Assembly (NCBI GenBank): GCA_036500345.1
Contig: DASYCE010000007.1
Span: 248,001-312,000 of the forward strand
Source of the DNA: Gemmatimonadales bacterium
GTDB taxonomy: Bacteria > Gemmatimonadota > Gemmatimonadetes > Gemmatimonadales > GWC2-71-9
DNA length: 64,000 nucleotides
Reading direction: 5' to 3'
Part shown: piece after piece, positions 24,818-31,737 of the stretch
How the letters are laid out: each line of letters starts with the position of its first letter
Numbering within the stretch: the first letter of the stretch is position 1
Program-made: the position numbers and the translations under genes
Notes under the pieces: model-generated
The model's input: only the letters and a program-made list of their open reading frames with translations
What the model was told of the DNA's origin: nothing
Databases searched by the model: none

Positions 24818-25993
24818 TCACCCCTCGCCCGGTGCATGGTCGGCAGCGGCGAGAAACTCGAGCCCGGCGGCAACGAATTGCGCCCGATCGAGGCCCGCCT
24901 GGAGCTGGCGTTCGCCGAGGTATGCTTCGACAATGTCGGGAAGCGTCTGCCGATGACCCGGCGCGCCGGACGCGACAGCGTGACGTCGCTCGGGCGGCCG
25001 GAGGTCAAGCTGAAAGTGCAGCGCTTCGTTTTTCCACGATCGGATCCGTGCGTGATCGAGCTCGCGAGCGACGGCGCGGGGCACTCCCCGCAACACCTGC
25101 CGGACCACCGCGCCGGCAATGCCGCCGGGGACTTCTGCGACGGCGTCGGCGATCAACCGGTTGATCTCGGCCGCGGCAAGATCTTCTGCATCGAGCCAGC
25201 GAAGATCGAGGAACCGGCGCGGCGCGGCGATCGGCTGCCGCGTGACGGCGCCCGTCTCCAGATCGATCAGTAACCATCCCTTGCCGCGGACGTGCAGGTC
25301 GCGCTCTTCGCGCAGCTCGCGCCAGGGATTGGTCGACACGTAGTCGAGCGACCCGGCGTACCATTGCCGCGCGCCGACCTGACGCTGCACGTGGTAGTGC
25401 CCCAGCGCGATGTAGCTCCAGTCGTCGCGCAGGTCCGCCGCCATGAGCCGCGCACCGCCCGGCTCGAGGTTTTCGGCGTCGTGCGGGAAAAGGTCTTCGG
25501 TCTCGCCGTGAATCAGCAGCACCTGGTGCCGCTCGGTGCCGCCCGGCTCAAACGCCGCACGAGGTGATTCGATCAGCGCCTGGTGGGGGACACCGAGGAT
25601 GCTGAGGTCGAGCGCGGGAAACGGAAATCGCTGCGCGCGATCGGCGGCGACGTAGACCCCGACCTCGCGCAGCACGCCGAAGATCGACACGGTGTCGCTG
25701 GACCGCGGCGTGTCGTGATTCCCCGCGATGACAACGACCGGCACCTGCGGCAGCGCGCGCTGCAGCCGCACGAATTGCTGCAGGGCATGGAGAATGGCCG
25801 AGTTGGTGGGCCGCACATTGTGAAAGAGATCACCCGCGACGACAACCGCGTCGGGACGCGCCGCGATCACGCCGTCGATGGCAGACGCAAAGGCGCTGGC
25901 AACGTCGACTTCCCGCTGATTCCGGCCCTTCTCGTTCAACCGATGGTATTGCCGGAATCCGAGATGCGGATCGGCCAGATGCGCCAGACGCAT
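24818..25993 (-). CDS. sbcD: Mre11/SbcD-type DNA repair nuclease
   Basis: 391-residue metallophosphoesterase with the five Mre11 motifs: ADPHLGF (Asp8, His10), VVVAGDLFHN (about 52), VVIAGNHDTP (91-94), LLIHGETEDL, and YIALGHYHVQ (GHxH). The ATG is 3 bases after the HerA-like gene's stop, and the gene ends directly against the Rad50 start. Mre11 supplies 3'-5' exonuclease and endonuclease activity that Rad50 gates with ATP. The C-terminal third probably forms the Rad50-binding region. All metal ligands seem intact, so the complex should be active. Confidence 0.94.
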   Translation of the reverse strand: MRLAHLADPHLGFRQYHRLNEKGRNQREVDVASAFASAIDGVIAARPDAVVVAGDLFHNVRPTNSAILHALQQFVRLQRALPQVPVVVIAGNHDTPRSSDTVSIFGVLREVGVYVAADRAQRFPFPALDLSILGVPHQALIESPRAAFEPGGTERHQVLLIHGETEDLFPHDAENLEPGGARLMAADLRDDWSYIALGHYHVQRQVGARQWYAGSLDYVSTNPWRELREERDLHVRGKGWLLIDLETGAVTRQPIAAPRRFLDLRWLDAEDLAAAEINRLIADAVAEVPGGIAGAVVRQVLRGVPRAVARELDHARIRSWKNEALHFQLDLRPPERRHAVASGAPGHRQTLPDIVEAYLGERQLQAGLDRAQFVAAGLEFLAAADHAPGEG

Positions 25994-25996
25994 CCT

Positions 25997-27928
25997 CTAA
26001 TATGGCGTGAACGGGTCCTGGTCGTCGCGCACCAGCGGCGCCACCCCGCGCCGTGGTTCGACCGGCTGCGCGACGATGGTCCGCCTGAGACATCCACGGA
26101 AAAAGGCCAGGACGTCGTCCGGTGCCCGGAGCGCCACCGCCGAAAGCGCCTTGAGCACTTCCTGCTCGGGGCGCCCGTCGATCGCGCTCCGGATGCTGTC
26201 GGCGCTGACCGCCGGATCGAGTCGCTTGAGCCGCTGAACCACCCCGTCCTCGAAGGCGACGTCGGGAACCGGCGGAAAGCGATCAACCCCCTCGCGCCCC
26301 GAAAGCGAGGCCGGGCGCGGAAAGCGGATGAAGACTGGTTGGGTAAAGTGGGGATGGCGAAGCATCAGTTCGCCCTTGGGAAGCGACGCCAGCTTGGCCT
26401 TCACCGCAGGCGACAGGGTGGCGTAGCCCGGCATCGCCAATTCGTCGCTGTCCATTCTCCCGTACGCGCTGGTGCCGGCGTTGCCGGTGACTCGCCGCAT
26501 CACCTGCGACCGGAACTGCTGCGCCGAGAAGAGCACGAGGCCGAGGTAGCGCCCCCGCTCGGAGAGATCGAGCAACATCCGCTTCACGTACGTGTCGGGA
26601 CCGTCGGCGGGGGCGTACTTGTTGAGTTCGTCCACGAAGACGATGACATGATCGACGCCGAGATCGCGCCGCTCGAGGTGTTCGCGAACCCGGGCGATCA
26701 GGCGGGCGAAAACGAGATCCTGGGCCAGCGGATCGACGCCCGCGATGTCGACCACGTGCACCGACCGATCACGGAACGCTCCCCACGGGAGATCGCTGAC
26801 GAGCGCGTCATCGGTGACCAGCCCCTTGGAACGCGTGGCAATGTTGCCGAGCCGGTTGCGGACCTTTCGAATCGTCGCCGCGTGGTGGGTCCGCCAGACC
26901 TCGGCGCCACGCTGGGTCTCGAGGAAGTCGAAGATCGAACGGAAGAAGTGGTCGAGGTCGGCGAGACTCGTCACCTCGAACGGCTTTTCCTGCAATTCGG
27001 GCGCCTGATAGCGCTTGCCGACCACGCGATCGGCGAGAAAATCGAGGAGCGCATCCGCCTTGGCGTCGATGTCGTCGCGATTCAGGACCACTTCGGCGAA
27101 GTCGAGGACTTCGCGCAACCCCCACACCAGCGGCTGCACCGCGCCGGCGATCTCAGGATTGGTGCGCAGGGTGTTGAGGTTGACACCATCTGGCTTGAAG
27201 GGGGCGTAGACGGTGACATCGGCAAATGGCACCGCCTGCAATCCGAGTCGATGCCAGATCGCCAGGTCCTCCTTGCTCAGGACCGACGGCTGGTCGAGAA
27301 AGCAGAGGTCGGGGCCCTTCACGTTGAAGCAAAGCGCGGCGACGCTCCCCTTCGATTTCGGGAACGTCTGAAAGATCGCGCTCAGCAGCACGGCGATCGC
27401 ACTGGTCTTGGTGGCGAGACCCGACACGCCGCTGATGTTGAAGTGCGCCGCCTCGGGACCGACGAGGAAGTCCGCATCGAGATACACCGGCGCATCGACA
27501 GCACCGCCGGCGAGGAGTCCGATCGGAATCCCGGTCGACGCGTCACCGCCAGTGTACGTCTCCATCCGCAATGCGACGCGAACGTCCTCCGCCGACGCGA
27601 GGACCACCGCGCCGAACGGCGCGGGCTGCATCGGTTCGGCCGGGAGTTGCCTGACGACGGCGACGGTCCAGAGTCGAATCGCGGTGCGTGATCGTGCGCT
27701 GCGCGCCGGATTGCCTTCGGCAGCGAGGACGGCATCGAGCGGACGGGCAAGATCGAGATAGGAAAAGCCCTCGACGATGACGCCGAAGACGGTTCGCCCT
27801 TCGGCGTCGACGCGAACGATCGTACCGATCCCGCATGACGCGTCGGCACCTGACCAGAAATGAAACTGGTGCGGGGTGCTGGGATGCTCTTCCGTCGCGA
27901 CGACCTGCCCGACGATCGATTCAGTCAC
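25997..27928 (-). CDS. HerA-like ATPase with altered P-loop
   Basis: 643 residues. The N-terminal part (about 1-120) looks like a HAS-barrel (GQVVATEEHPSTPHQFHFW, GIGTIVRVDAEG, FGVIVEGFSY). The ATPase core has FNISGVSGLATKTSAIAV, with P-loop GVSGLATKT (167-175) in place of GxxGxGK[ST], then Walker B VIVFVDELNKYAP (about 430) and a Gln/Arg-containing strand LVLFSAQQFRSQVMRRVTGN. HerA forms hexameric rings that pump DNA into the NurA nuclease during end resection. Here it lies directly upstream of Mre11 and Rad50, as in archaeal herA-mre11-rad50-nurA clusters, but no NurA is present. GTG start. Confidence 0.85.
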   Translation of the reverse strand: MTESIVGQVVATEEHPSTPHQFHFWSGADASCGIGTIVRVDAEGRTVFGVIVEGFSYLDLARPLDAVLAAEGNPARSARSRTAIRLWTVAVVRQLPAEPMQPAPFGAVVLASAEDVRVALRMETYTGGDASTGIPIGLLAGGAVDAPVYLDADFLVGPEAAHFNISGVSGLATKTSAIAVLLSAIFQTFPKSKGSVAALCFNVKGPDLCFLDQPSVLSKEDLAIWHRLGLQAVPFADVTVYAPFKPDGVNLNTLRTNPEIAGAVQPLVWGLREVLDFAEVVLNRDDIDAKADALLDFLADRVVGKRYQAPELQEKPFEVTSLADLDHFFRSIFDFLETQRGAEVWRTHHAATIRKVRNRLGNIATRSKGLVTDDALVSDLPWGAFRDRSVHVVDIAGVDPLAQDLVFARLIARVREHLERRDLGVDHVIVFVDELNKYAPADGPDTYVKRMLLDLSERGRYLGLVLFSAQQFRSQVMRRVTGNAGTSAYGRMDSDELAMPGYATLSPAVKAKLASLPKGELMLRHPHFTQPVFIRFPRPASLSGREGVDRFPPVPDVAFEDGVVQRLKRLDPAVSADSIRSAIDGRPEQEVLKALSAVALRAPDDVLAFFRGCLRRTIVAQPVEPRRGVAPLVRDDQDPFTPY

Positions 27929-27937
27929 GACGACCGG

Positions 27938-28441
27938 TCATTCCAATCCTGGTGGCTGCGGGACGTGCTCGAGCCAGAAGCCGGCGAGCCGCTGCGCGCC
28001 GTCGACTTCGACGAGGAAGTGATCGGCGACCCGAATCGCTTCCACCGGGCGGCGGGTGCCGATCCGGAGATGGAAGGTGGTTTCGTCGGGGTCGGCGGAG
28101 ACGGTCAGTGTGGTGTCGAACTCCAGTGCCGCGACGCCACGCTTGGCCGTGCGCGACGGGACCAGCACCTGGCCGCGCCGCGCCTCCACCGGTGCGGCGA
28201 GCCCCGCGAGGGTCGTGATGTCGGGCCACACCACGATGTCGATGCCGCACAGCACTCCGGCACTGATGTCGAGGACGGCAATCGATCCGTCGTCATCGTT
28301 CAACTCGACGGTGCCGGTATACCCCGCGCCAGTCGCCGGCGGATCGATCGTTCCGGTGAGAATGTCGGTCTCGGGATCCCAACGCCATTGCAGTGTCGGG
28401 AGCGGACCGGGCTGCGCGAGGACGTGAATCTCCAACGCCAT
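27938..28441 (-). CDS. Small unknown protein preceding the HerA-like gene, possibly two DUF2283-like repeats
   Basis: 167 residues, predicted mostly beta. Two halves end in a similar pattern: DGSIAVLDISAGVLCGIDIV (about 50-70) and DHFLVEVDGAQRLAGFWLEHV (about 140-160), each preceded by an acidic strand (WDPETDILTGTI; DPDETTFHLRIG). This recalls the DUF2283 layout (DPEAD..Y..L ... LD.DGRLVGIEIL), so a tandem of that fold is my tentative reading. No nuclease motif is seen, so it is not NurA. Its ATG overlaps the aminotransferase stop, and it ends 9 bases before the HerA-like gene. Context suggests an accessory factor for the HerA/Mre11/Rad50 machinery. Confidence 0.6.
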   Translation of the reverse strand: MALEIHVLAQPGPLPTLQWRWDPETDILTGTIDPPATGAGYTGTVELNDDDGSIAVLDISAGVLCGIDIVVWPDITTLAGLAAPVEARRGQVLVPSRTAKRGVAALEFDTTLTVSADPDETTFHLRIGTRRPVEAIRVADHFLVEVDGAQRLAGFWLEHVPQPPGLE

Positions 28442-29655
28442 CAACCACTCAGCGCGGGCACGCCGAGACGCGCAACGAACTGCACGATCCGATCGCACGC
28501 CGCTTCGAGTTGCGCATCGGACACCGCGAATGACAGGCGAACCCAGCGGTCATCGCCAAACGCGACGCCGGGGACGAGCGCCACGCCGGCATCCTTCATC
28601 AGTTGCTCGCAGAACGCCGCGCCGCCGATACCGCGCCCCGGTGCGAGCGCGTCGACGCGGAAGAGGAAATAGAAGGCGCCGTGCGGCTCGACGAATTCCA
28701 CACCGGGCAACTGGTCGCCGAACCGGGCGACGAGGTAGTCGCGGCGGCGGGAAAACGCGGCGACCATCCGCTCCACGTCGGCGTCGATCGCCGGATCGCC
28801 AAACGCCTTCGTCGCCGCCCACATCGCCGGCTGGTTGGCGCCGGTGGTCATGTGGCTCTGCAGCGCCGCCATCGCCCGGGTCACTTCGGCGGGCGCGTAC
28901 GACGCGCCGATCCGCCAGCCGGTCATCGCATACGCCTTCGACGCGCCGTAGAAGACGAGCGCGCGCTCGAGGACACCGTCGTCGAGATCAAAGAGCGATG
29001 GAGCGGGGCCGGCGCCGTAGTGAATTCGCCGATAGATCTCGTCGTTGAGCAGCCAGATCCCGTGCGCAGCCGCCCAATCGGCAATTGCGCGCAGCTCAGC
29101 CTGGGTGTACACCGAGCCGGTCGGATTGCACGGTGAACAGAGGATCACGCCGCGGGTGTGCTCGTCGCGTGCGCGCTCCAGATCGTCGACGCTGACCTTG
29201 AGTCCCCATTCCGGGTCTCCGGCGACCATCACCGGTTCGGCGCGGGCCAGGTGCACGATCTGTGGATACGACACCCACGCCGGTGAGGGAATCAGCACCT
29301 TGTCGCCCGGGCCGAAGAGCGTGAAGCAGGCGTTGAACAGCGACTGCTTTGACCCGTTGCTCACCATCACCCGATCGGGATCAACGGCACGTCCGCCGCT
29401 CATCCGCGAGAGAGCCGACGCAATTGCCCGCCGCAATTCCACCGTGCCGACATTCGGTGCGTAGCGCGTCTTCCCGGAGCGGATCGCGTCGATCCCGGCT
29501 TCCGCCACTGCAGCGGGGGTGTCGAAGTCGGGCTCGCCGGCGCCGAGATCGAGGACGTCGTCGCCGGCAGCCTTGCGCCGTTGCGCTTCGGTGCTGATCG
29601 CCACGGTTTCCGACGATTTGAGATACTGGAGATTGGGTGAGCGATGGAAGGTCAT
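28441..29655 (-). CDS. Class I PLP-dependent aminotransferase, aspartate aminotransferase type
   Basis: 404-residue fold-type I aminotransferase of the AspB/AspC-Thermus type. Visible features: GAGEPDFDTP near the N-terminus, the PLP contacts SNGSKQSLFNAC and SPCNPTGSVYT, NDEIYRRIHY, the Schiff-base lysine in YGASKAYAMTGWRIG (about 236), and the C-terminal Arg in RWVRLSFAVSD that binds the substrate carboxylate. It likely transfers amino groups between aspartate and 2-oxoglutarate. It is the first gene of a minus-strand run that continues into DNA repair genes, with its stop overlapping the next ATG. A TATTTT box exactly 5 bases before the ATG implies a leaderless mRNA. Confidence 0.92.
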   Translation of the reverse strand: MTFHRSPNLQYLKSSETVAISTEAQRRKAAGDDVLDLGAGEPDFDTPAAVAEAGIDAIRSGKTRYAPNVGTVELRRAIASALSRMSGGRAVDPDRVMVSNGSKQSLFNACFTLFGPGDKVLIPSPAWVSYPQIVHLARAEPVMVAGDPEWGLKVSVDDLERARDEHTRGVILCSPCNPTGSVYTQAELRAIADWAAAHGIWLLNDEIYRRIHYGAGPAPSLFDLDDGVLERALVFYGASKAYAMTGWRIGASYAPAEVTRAMAALQSHMTTGANQPAMWAATKAFGDPAIDADVERMVAAFSRRRDYLVARFGDQLPGVEFVEPHGAFYFLFRVDALAPGRGIGGAAFCEQLMKDAGVALVPGVAFGDDRWVRLSFAVSDAQLEAACDRIVQFVARLGVPALSG

Positions 29656-29726: not shown

Positions 29727-31214
29727 ATGGTTGATCGAGTCGCTTTGACAATCGAGGTGGGAGTGTCGGGGTTTCTGGAATGGCAGATGATGCCGGCGGT
29801 CGCCGCCGGCCTGGAGCGGCTTGGCTGGCAGGCCGGCGATCCCGAGGTGCGTGACGCCGTCCCCGCCGCGCTCCGTGGCACCAACGTCGTGGCGGTCCTG
29901 CCGCCCTCGCCGGCGTGGGCCGTTCCCCTCGTCGGAGGGCTCGTCGGGCAGCCCGACAAGAGCGGGACGGTTCTGATGCTCGCCGGCCCAGCCCTCCTCG
30001 ACGAATGGGTCACCGCCGTCGGAGCGCTGATCGAGGGTACGCCGCTGCTCGTCGATGTCCTCCGGCCAGGCGCCTCGTCGCGACCACTCGCGCCAACACC
30101 CGACATCGTGATCGCCACACCGGCGACGGCGTTCGCGTTCCACGCCCAGTCCGCCCTTCGTCCCGAACAATTTCGCGCGATCGTGTTCGTCTGGCCGGAA
30201 AGCTGGAACGCCGACGAAGCGGTGAGCGCCATCCTCCAGGATTGTCCCCGCGACGCCCAACGGCTGATGATCACCAGCCGGTCCGACCAGACCAGCGCCG
30301 CCGACGGCGTCGTCGAACGGTATGCCCGCAAGGCGGTCGTCGTGCAATCACCCCGGCCGGCGATTGATACGAAGCCGCCGGCGCCGGTGCGCAGCGTGCC
30401 CGCATCGTGGAACGGGCGGGCGGCAGCGCTCGCCGCAATCGCCGACCGGATCACCGGCGATCCGGTGACGATCTGGACCGCCGATACACGGGACCAGTCG
30501 CTGATTCGCCGCGCGTTCGGGTCGCTTCCGGCGTCATGGCGCTTCGCGGCGCGAGACGTGCCCCGTGGCGGCGAGACGGTGTGCTACGACCTTCCTTCGG
30601 AGGGCCAGCTTGCGGCCCTGCGACAGGCCGGACCGGTCACGTTGCTGATGGCCCCCGGCACGGAGGCGTATGTGGAATCGATCGCACCGAGCCGTCAGCC
30701 GCTGCAGGCGACATCTCCGCTGCGTGCGGTGATCGACCGCGACGAATCGATTCGGAGCGACATCGCCGGGCGCATCGCCGCGGGTGCCGACGCCGGGGCG
30801 CTGTATGCGCTGGGTCCGCTCTTCGATCGCCACGATCCGCAGCTCGTCGCCGCCGCACTCTTCTCGATGTGGCAGCGAACCCGGGATTCGTCGGCCGGCA
30901 GCGGCGGCGGCAGCGCGCCGTCTCAGCCACCGACGGTGACGGCCGCGACGAGCGCCGCGAGCGGGGTCGCCAAGTTGTGGATCGGTGCCGGAAAGAAGGA
31001 CGAGGCGACGGTCGGGGATTTCGTCGCCATCCTGGTGCGCGAAGCAAAGATGGACCGCACCCAGATCGGTCGTATTGACCTGCGCGATACCTTTGCGCTG
31101 GTCGAAGTTCCGGCGGCGGATGCCGAGGCGATTGCCCAGCGTCTTGTGGGCGTCACCATCCGGAAGCGGAAGCTCTCGGCGCGGGTGGACCGCGGTCGGG
31201 GCGGCGGTCGTTAA
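29727..31214 (+). CDS. Degenerate DEAD-box-like protein with C-terminal DbpA RNA-binding domain
   Basis: 495 residues from the ATG at 29727 (a TTG 12 bases upstream is possible). The C-terminus (about 415-490: LWIGAGKKDEATVGDFVAIL, IGRIDLRDTFALVEVP, RKRKLSARVDRGRGGGR) is a DbpA-type RNA-recognition domain. The N-terminal two thirds keep the outline of a DEAD-box core (FLEWQMMPAVAAGLERLGW, PDIVIATPATAFAF, FRAIVFVWPESW) but lack its catalytic motifs. The Walker A position reads AVLPPSPAW, DEAD is replaced by WPES, SAT by ITS, and the Q-motif is gone. I infer an RNA-binding pseudo-helicase, perhaps acting in ribosome assembly or cold adaptation. Coding character is good, so it is not simply decaying. 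Confidence 0.75.
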   Translation: MVDRVALTIEVGVSGFLEWQMMPAVAAGLERLGWQAGDPEVRDAVPAALRGTNVVAVLPPSPAWAVPLVGGLVGQPDKSGTVLMLAGPALLDEWVTAVGALIEGTPLLVDVLRPGASSRPLAPTPDIVIATPATAFAFHAQSALRPEQFRAIVFVWPESWNADEAVSAILQDCPRDAQRLMITSRSDQTSAADGVVERYARKAVVVQSPRPAIDTKPPAPVRSVPASWNGRAAALAAIADRITGDPVTIWTADTRDQSLIRRAFGSLPASWRFAARDVPRGGETVCYDLPSEGQLAALRQAGPVTLLMAPGTEAYVESIAPSRQPLQATSPLRAVIDRDESIRSDIAGRIAAGADAGALYALGPLFDRHDPQLVAAALFSMWQRTRDSSAGSGGGSAPSQPPTVTAATSAASGVAKLWIGAGKKDEATVGDFVAILVREAKMDRTQIGRIDLRDTFALVEVPAADAEAIAQRLVGVTIRKRKLSARVDRGRGGGR

Positions 31215-31220
31215 ACGCCG

Positions 31221-31246
31221 ACGGGCCGCCCAGCGGGGCGGCCCGT
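31221..31246. terminator. Hairpin between the DbpA-domain gene and HU
   Basis: Perfect 10-bp stem ACGGGCCGCC-cagcgg-GGCGGCCCGT between two converging genes, 6 bases after one stop and 27 before the other. There is no T-run on either side. Its position fits a shared, bidirectional stop. Confidence 0.6.
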
Positions 31247-31272: not shown

Positions 31273-31563
31273 TTACTTGCCCTTGTTGACCAGATCCTTG
31301 AGACCCTTGCCCGGGCGGAACGCCGGGACCTTCGACGCCTTGATCTTGATGGTGGCGCCGGTCTGCGGATTGCGGCCTTCACGCGCGGCACGCTTGCGGA
31401 CTTCGAAATTCCCGAACCCGGTGATCGCGATGGCGCCGCCCTTCTTCAACTCCTTGGCGAGCAGACCTTCGGTCGAGAAGAAGAGGTCGACGATGTCGCC
31501 GGCATCTGCCTTCGAGGTTTCGCGGGCCTTCGCGACCGCCTCGATGAGCTCCATCTTGTTCAT
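31273..31563 (-). CDS. HU family DNA-binding protein
   Basis: 96-residue nucleoid protein. It opens with the classic MNKMELIEAVAKARETSKAD and has the signature GFGNFEVRKRAAREGRNPQT followed by GATIKIKASKVPAFRPGKGL; the beta-arm proline region is intact. HU dimers bend and compact DNA. The ATG at 31563 is set by family length and an AAGGAG site just upstream; a longer in-frame extension exists but is not protein-like. Its leader contains an inverted repeat CCAGTC/GACTGG (31604-31621) that could bind a regulator. CATATT in the divergent spacer, with TTGCGG 18 bases before it, may be the promoter. Confidence 0.95.
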   Translation of the reverse strand: MNKMELIEAVAKARETSKADAGDIVDLFFSTEGLLAKELKKGGAIAITGFGNFEVRKRAAREGRNPQTGATIKIKASKVPAFRPGKGLKDLVNKGK

Positions 31564-31737
31564 GAGTTGCTCCTTGGGTTTGACTGTGGGATCGGATCGC
31601 GGACCAGTCGGCCCGGACTGGCGACAATATGCGGTCCGCGTCCGCAAGTCCGCAAGATCCTTGACATTCCCGGGCGCGCGCCGCTGCATCCCGCACGGCT
31701 GGCGGATTCCCGGCGGGTACCCCTTGACGAAACGCCC

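Follow-up and report, generated by a model that had tools for sequence, protein, structure and literature searches.

A maintained pseudo-DEAD-box helicase with a DbpA-type RNA-recognition domain in Gemmatimonadota, a candidate ATP-free RNA scaffold

The gene at positions 29727-31214 (forward strand) of the 64,000-nucleotide stretch of Gemmatimonadales DNA analysed here (the window) raises the question of whether a DEAD-box protein without its ATPase motifs is a decaying relic or a maintained protein that works in another way. The initial annotation had described a full-length frame of 495 codons, a C-terminal DbpA domain and a core that has lost its catalytic motifs. The frame was indeed open throughout and encodes 495 amino acids; its start is uncertain, the homologues beginning with "MTIE..", which is compatible with a TTG at 29745 as well as with the ATG at 29727. 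A Pfam search recovered the DbpA domain (PF03880) at residues 417-486 with an E-value of 6.5e-18 and a score of 65 bits against the curated cut-off of 25.6 bits, and this RNA-recognition motif (RRM) was annotated at 30966-31190. It was the sole Pfam match of the protein: neither PF00270 nor PF00271 was found, and no family model reached threshold in the core. Sequence comparison revealed a short GRGGGR tail behind the RRM (31191-31211), and C-terminal Arg/Gly-rich tails are frequent among the relatives. The open frame, its relatives, purifying selection and the predicted fold together identify the gene as a pseudo-DEAD-box helicase with a C-terminal DbpA RRM.

The ancestry of the core was recognized with a profile built from 40 relatives of the window protein. 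The profile matched DbpA (PDB ID 7pli) across the core and RRM with an E-value of 9.4e-25, and CshA (PDB ID 5ivl) over both lobes with an E-value of 1.1e-24, extending weakly into the CshA dimerisation region as a second stretch (E 0.0043). The AlphaFold2 model, calculated without templates, has a pLDDT of 88.8, and the comparison with DbpA structures that had been proposed at the outset could thus be made: a Foldseek search of the PDB returned DbpA structures as the best matches (E 2e-19), with CshA and Hera next. Whole-chain TM-scores, at 0.37-0.42 for DbpA, were modest; a different arrangement of the lobes and the RRM would account for this. By profile and model, the window protein is a DEAD-box descendant with two RecA-like lobes. 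The first lobe (RecA1-like; residues ~1-205; 29727-30341) lacks the ATPase motifs and is not basic, with a net charge of -7, and the second (RecA2-like; residues ~206-335; 30342-30731) is shortened. They are followed by a helical region (30732-30902) that resembles the DeaD/CshA dimerisation domain, as indicated by the second CshA stretch, by low dN/dS and by the dimerisation domain PF25399, which was found in 4 of 28 relatives and remained below threshold in the window protein. Chance resemblance is excluded, because the DEAD-box core was recognized by both profile and predicted fold and its substitutions are repeated in members across the clade.

To locate the motifs, we aligned the window protein with nine motif-complete helicases from other loci and with E. 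coli DbpA and DeaD. Motifs Q, I, Ia, II, III, V and VI were all lost. At the Walker A (motif I) position the protein has AVLPPSPAW without G-x-G-K-T (29892-29918), at the DEAD (motif II) position WPES with a Trp in place of the catalytic Glu (30192-30203), and at the SAT (motif III) position ITS (30270-30278); these three sites and the missing Q-motif fell where the initial annotation had put them. The segment carrying motifs V (ARGLD) and VI (HRIGRTGR) is deleted, and the "VNYDIP" sequence that follows motif V persists as "VCYDLP". No alternative alignment with intact ATPase motifs, a finding that would have spoken against a pseudoenzyme, was obtained for the window protein or its closest relatives. 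Judging from these motifs, neither ATP binding nor ATP hydrolysis of the DEAD-box kind is possible for the encoded protein.

The same loss was found across the clade. A strict P-loop at the motif I site occurs in only one of 80 aligned members, the basal member L085, which keeps GSGSGKT together with the Q-motif; DEA[DH] at the motif II site occurs in none of the 80, and L167, which lies beyond these 80, keeps DEAD with a broken P-loop. The Q-motif, along with half P-loops (GPGSGV, for example), is retained in several basal members. None of the aligned members has motif V or VI, and an intact motif set was found in no member checked. The replacements of motif II vary by lineage (AWPE, AWAD, AWLD, DGAA, DQAS). 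A Trp stands at the catalytic-Glu position in 67 of the 80 members (A-W-P-E, A-W-A-D or A-W-L-D), where it may plug the empty nucleotide cleft, and a Pro-Pro pair occupies the P-loop position in 47. As read from the alignment, motif loss is stepwise, because some basal members keep one intact motif while all those examined lack V and VI. The simplest history would be that the V-VI segment was lost in the common ancestor and that the other motifs then eroded in different orders. A further ~30-40 residues of the second lobe are missing from four members of one family (f3; L022, L023, L024 and L028).

Despite these losses, the coding sequence is strongly constrained. For pairs with unsaturated synonymous sites the overall dN/dS was 0.09-0.26, the value of the window protein itself being derived from distant relatives that are 57-59% identical with dS near 1, and frame-shifted controls gave 1.1-4.9. 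By part, dN/dS was 0.06-0.17 in the RRM, 0.01-0.25 in the dimerisation-like region, 0.10-0.36 in RecA1, 0.10-0.31 in RecA2 and up to ~1.5 in the linker, so that the RNA-binding and dimerisation-like parts are the lowest. A dN/dS near 1, the anticipated sign of decay, was thus not seen.

The family is spread far beyond the window. Among the near genomes, 58 of 61 have a match, and no internal stops were found in the near relatives. The profile matched in 282 of 292 sampled genomes of the class (Gemmatimonadota), or 282 of the 298 in the whole phylum sample, 282 being an upper figure since several of the very weakest matches proved to be motif-complete helicases; the six genomes of another class in that sample had no match (0/6). 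The genomes whose weakest matches are canonical helicases include G140, G214, G081, G125 and G249. We considered that the weak matches in the genomes of families f2, f5 and f7 might be canonical helicases only, and rejected this: when 20 weaker-match genomes were re-searched, all carried a pseudo-helicase except G113, in which only an RRM fragment was recovered beside an HU gene. Related genomes with the weakest profile matches also contain three DEAD-box helicases (L189, L191 and L192) that have all motifs but in which no DbpA RRM was detected. Apart from two Clostridium DbpA helicases and one unidentified bacterium, the named records returned by a contig search with a 13-row alignment, a scan biased to close relatives, were all Gemmatimonadota. 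The proposal of a maintained pseudoenzyme therefore holds at a much larger, class-wide scale.

Motif-complete DeaD paralogues are present elsewhere in many related genomes. In a maximum-likelihood tree the 46 sampled pseudo-helicases fall on one side of a branch with an SH-aLRT support of 100, with ordinary DeaD beside them, and the branching inside the pseudo-helicase clade broadly tracks the genome families. Judged by profile and tree, the pseudo-helicase is an old paralogue of a DEAD-box RNA helicase of the DeaD/CsdA type and has been inherited vertically.

The locus is stable as well. Across the order, the gene order is conserved as a divergent class I/II aminotransferase (28441-29655, reverse strand, in the window), the pseudo-helicase, a convergent HU-type DNA-binding protein (31273-31584, reverse strand), thymidine kinase and CoaE; the aminotransferase and/or HU neighbours are also found in most basal families, and canonical DeaD genes lie outside this neighbourhood. 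Between the pseudo-helicase and HU genes lies a strong GC hairpin (31221-31246; z -3.3), which is probably a bidirectional terminator. The conserved block also holds two genes on the reverse strand whose products have no Pfam match: a 643-aa protein (25997-27928), HerA-like by eye, and a 186-aa protein (27938-28498). A metallophosphoesterase gene (24818-25993) adjoins these two. In our longest-ORF annotation, the aminotransferase ORF overlaps the 186-aa ORF by 58 bases on the same strand.

DbpA domains direct DEAD-box helicases to 23S rRNA. The I-G-R-I loop of the RRM (31065-31076, forward strand) belongs to a near-invariant I/V-G-[RK]-I/V pattern, with Gly in 80 of 80 members and Arg or Lys at the third place (position 449) in 79 of 80. 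In the RRMs of YxiN (I436, G437 and I439) and Hera (V461, G462 and V464), the main-chain amides of this loop read a guanine, on which K463 of Hera stacks (PMC3695512). The third loop position is T, A or S in the canonical DeaD paralogues of the same phylum. Guanine recognition has likely been kept, because the loop is near-invariant, and its specificity has perhaps shifted, given the R/K at the third place. RRM positions outside the guanine loop vary, position 438 being K, G, R or N, and for this reason the RNA target may differ from hairpin 92 of 23S rRNA.

The RRM has itself been lost in one branch. In part of the Gemmatimonadaceae (L150-L154, L159, L160, L162, L164, L166, L168 and L172) the core is present at the same locus and no RRM was detected. 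RNA binding through the RRM cannot therefore be the universal function of the family, and the initial proposal of an RNA-binding chaperone or decoy, plausible in view of the conserved loop, has to be amended accordingly. The core of the RRM-less members gave dN/dS values of 0.09, 0.16 and 0.36 for three pairs; because it remains under purifying selection, the core very probably does something in its own right. In the window's genome the pseudo-helicase carries the single DbpA domain, and it is likewise the only DbpA domain in most genomes of the same family outside the genus.

These results bear on what the protein could do. The lost catalytic motifs, and the many spurious long ORFs of a GC-rich genome, might suggest a pseudogene, a decaying gene or a frame held open merely by base composition. 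However, dN/dS of 0.09-0.26 against frame-shifted controls above 1, class-wide conservation, fixed synteny and the lack of internal stops in near relatives rule out decay and leave this account with next to no probability. An unorthodox mode of ATP binding with weak ATPase activity is hinted at by L085, with its GSGSGKT and Q-motif, and by the DEAD of L167. It is nevertheless very improbable, for no checked member has a full motif set, every aligned member has lost the two motifs that complete the ATPase site (V and VI), and the window protein lacks both P-loop and DEAD.

More room is left for the core to have acquired a new activity or ligand, its cleft being rebuilt around PPxPAxAxP and AWPE to bind another small molecule or a peptide. 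The frequent Trp (67/80) and Pro-Pro (47/80) replacements and the constraint on the core even where the RRM is gone would agree with this, but replacement residues that vary by lineage are more in keeping with structural plugging than with a single new active site, and the core of the window protein matches no family model; we regard such a ligand as improbable. A dominant-negative or allosteric regulator, which would use the dimerisation-like region to pair with an active DeaD helicase, or compete for its RNA, and so tune it, is the likeliest of these alternatives and still an unlikely one. The DeaD/CshA dimerisation region is recognizable and constrained, and pseudo-helicase and canonical DeaD occur together in several related genomes; yet no further DbpA-domain helicase is present in the window's genome or in most family genomes outside the genus. 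With a single DbpA domain in the genome, an RRM-bearing DeaD partner is not required, and a model in which the protein acts only as a heterodimer with DeaD is weakened. An RhlE-like enzyme (L032) was noted as a candidate alternative partner to DeaD.

That the gene encodes a maintained pseudo-helicase is well supported and, to us, nearly certain. For its mechanism we lean, with reasonable but limited confidence, towards a scaffold or chaperone that binds RNA independently of ATP. In this model the RRM, with its basic tail, would bind a loop or single-stranded stretch that contains guanine in a structured RNA, most likely rRNA; the two lobes, fixed in place, and the helices of the dimerisation-like region would hold the captured RNA and/or partner proteins, and RNA folding or ribosome assembly would be aided without ATP-driven cycling. 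In the RRM-less Gemmatimonadaceae, the scaffold role would remain with the core, and partners would supply the RNA targeting. The non-basic RecA1 lobe, the modest TM-scores, the variable RRM positions outside the guanine loop and the RRM-less lineage count against this mechanism. On balance, we think it somewhat probable that this is the first family of pseudo-DEAD-box helicases from bacteria, present nearly throughout its class, serving as an ATP-free scaffold for RNA and ribosome assembly that has taken over the RNA role of DeaD or works beside it, and that its members represent intermediates of ATPase loss, in which V-VI went first, then P-loop and DEAD in varying order, and then the RRM in one branch.

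Pseudokinases and other pseudoenzymes are well studied, and pseudo-helicases are hardly known. Within one class there is a natural series of motif-complete DeaD helicases, members with one motif left, fully dead ones and ones without the RRM, which makes testable both the role of the DEAD-box fold without ATP and the order in which an ATPase motor can be taken apart without the protein losing its usefulness. Because many genomes of the family have no other DbpA-domain protein, the pseudo-helicase may be their only protein with DbpA-type RNA recognition.

Among known systems, DeaD/CsdA and CshA are the nearest relatives by profile and tree. DeaD/CsdA has the same domain order, i.e., RecA1, RecA2, dimerisation-like helices, PF03880 RRM and Arg/Gly-rich tail, whereas the pseudo-helicase has lost all ATPase and unwinding motifs, lacks the V-VI segment and has no PF00270 or PF00271 match. 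E. coli DbpA, the top structural match, and B. subtilis YxiN share with it the RRM family and the guanine-binding I-G-x-I loop, but no helicase activity would be expected of the pseudo-helicase. Thermus Hera has the dimerisation-domain and RRM architecture and the basic tail in common; the R/K of the pseudo-helicase (79/80 at position 449) corresponds to K463 of Hera and is also Lys in E. coli DbpA, unlike the T/A/S of canonical DeaD of the phylum. Hera differs as an active ATP-dependent helicase. We found no precedent for a bacterial pseudo-helicase in the open-access papers searched, in which the described cases are eukaryotic. The closest described concept is yeast Utp25. Utp25/Def is a eukaryotic SSU-processome pseudohelicase, called there the first fully validated one, with a DEAD-box fold that has lost its catalytic motifs and is maintained and needed (PMC9539457). 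It retains motif Ia together with parts of motifs Q, IV, V and VI, and a DbpA RRM does not appear to be reported there (PMC9539457). We saw no sign of common descent of the window protein and Utp25 as pseudohelicases. The window protein shares with this concept the features that define a pseudohelicase: a helicase fold, here predicted, the loss of the catalytic residues and maintenance by selection.
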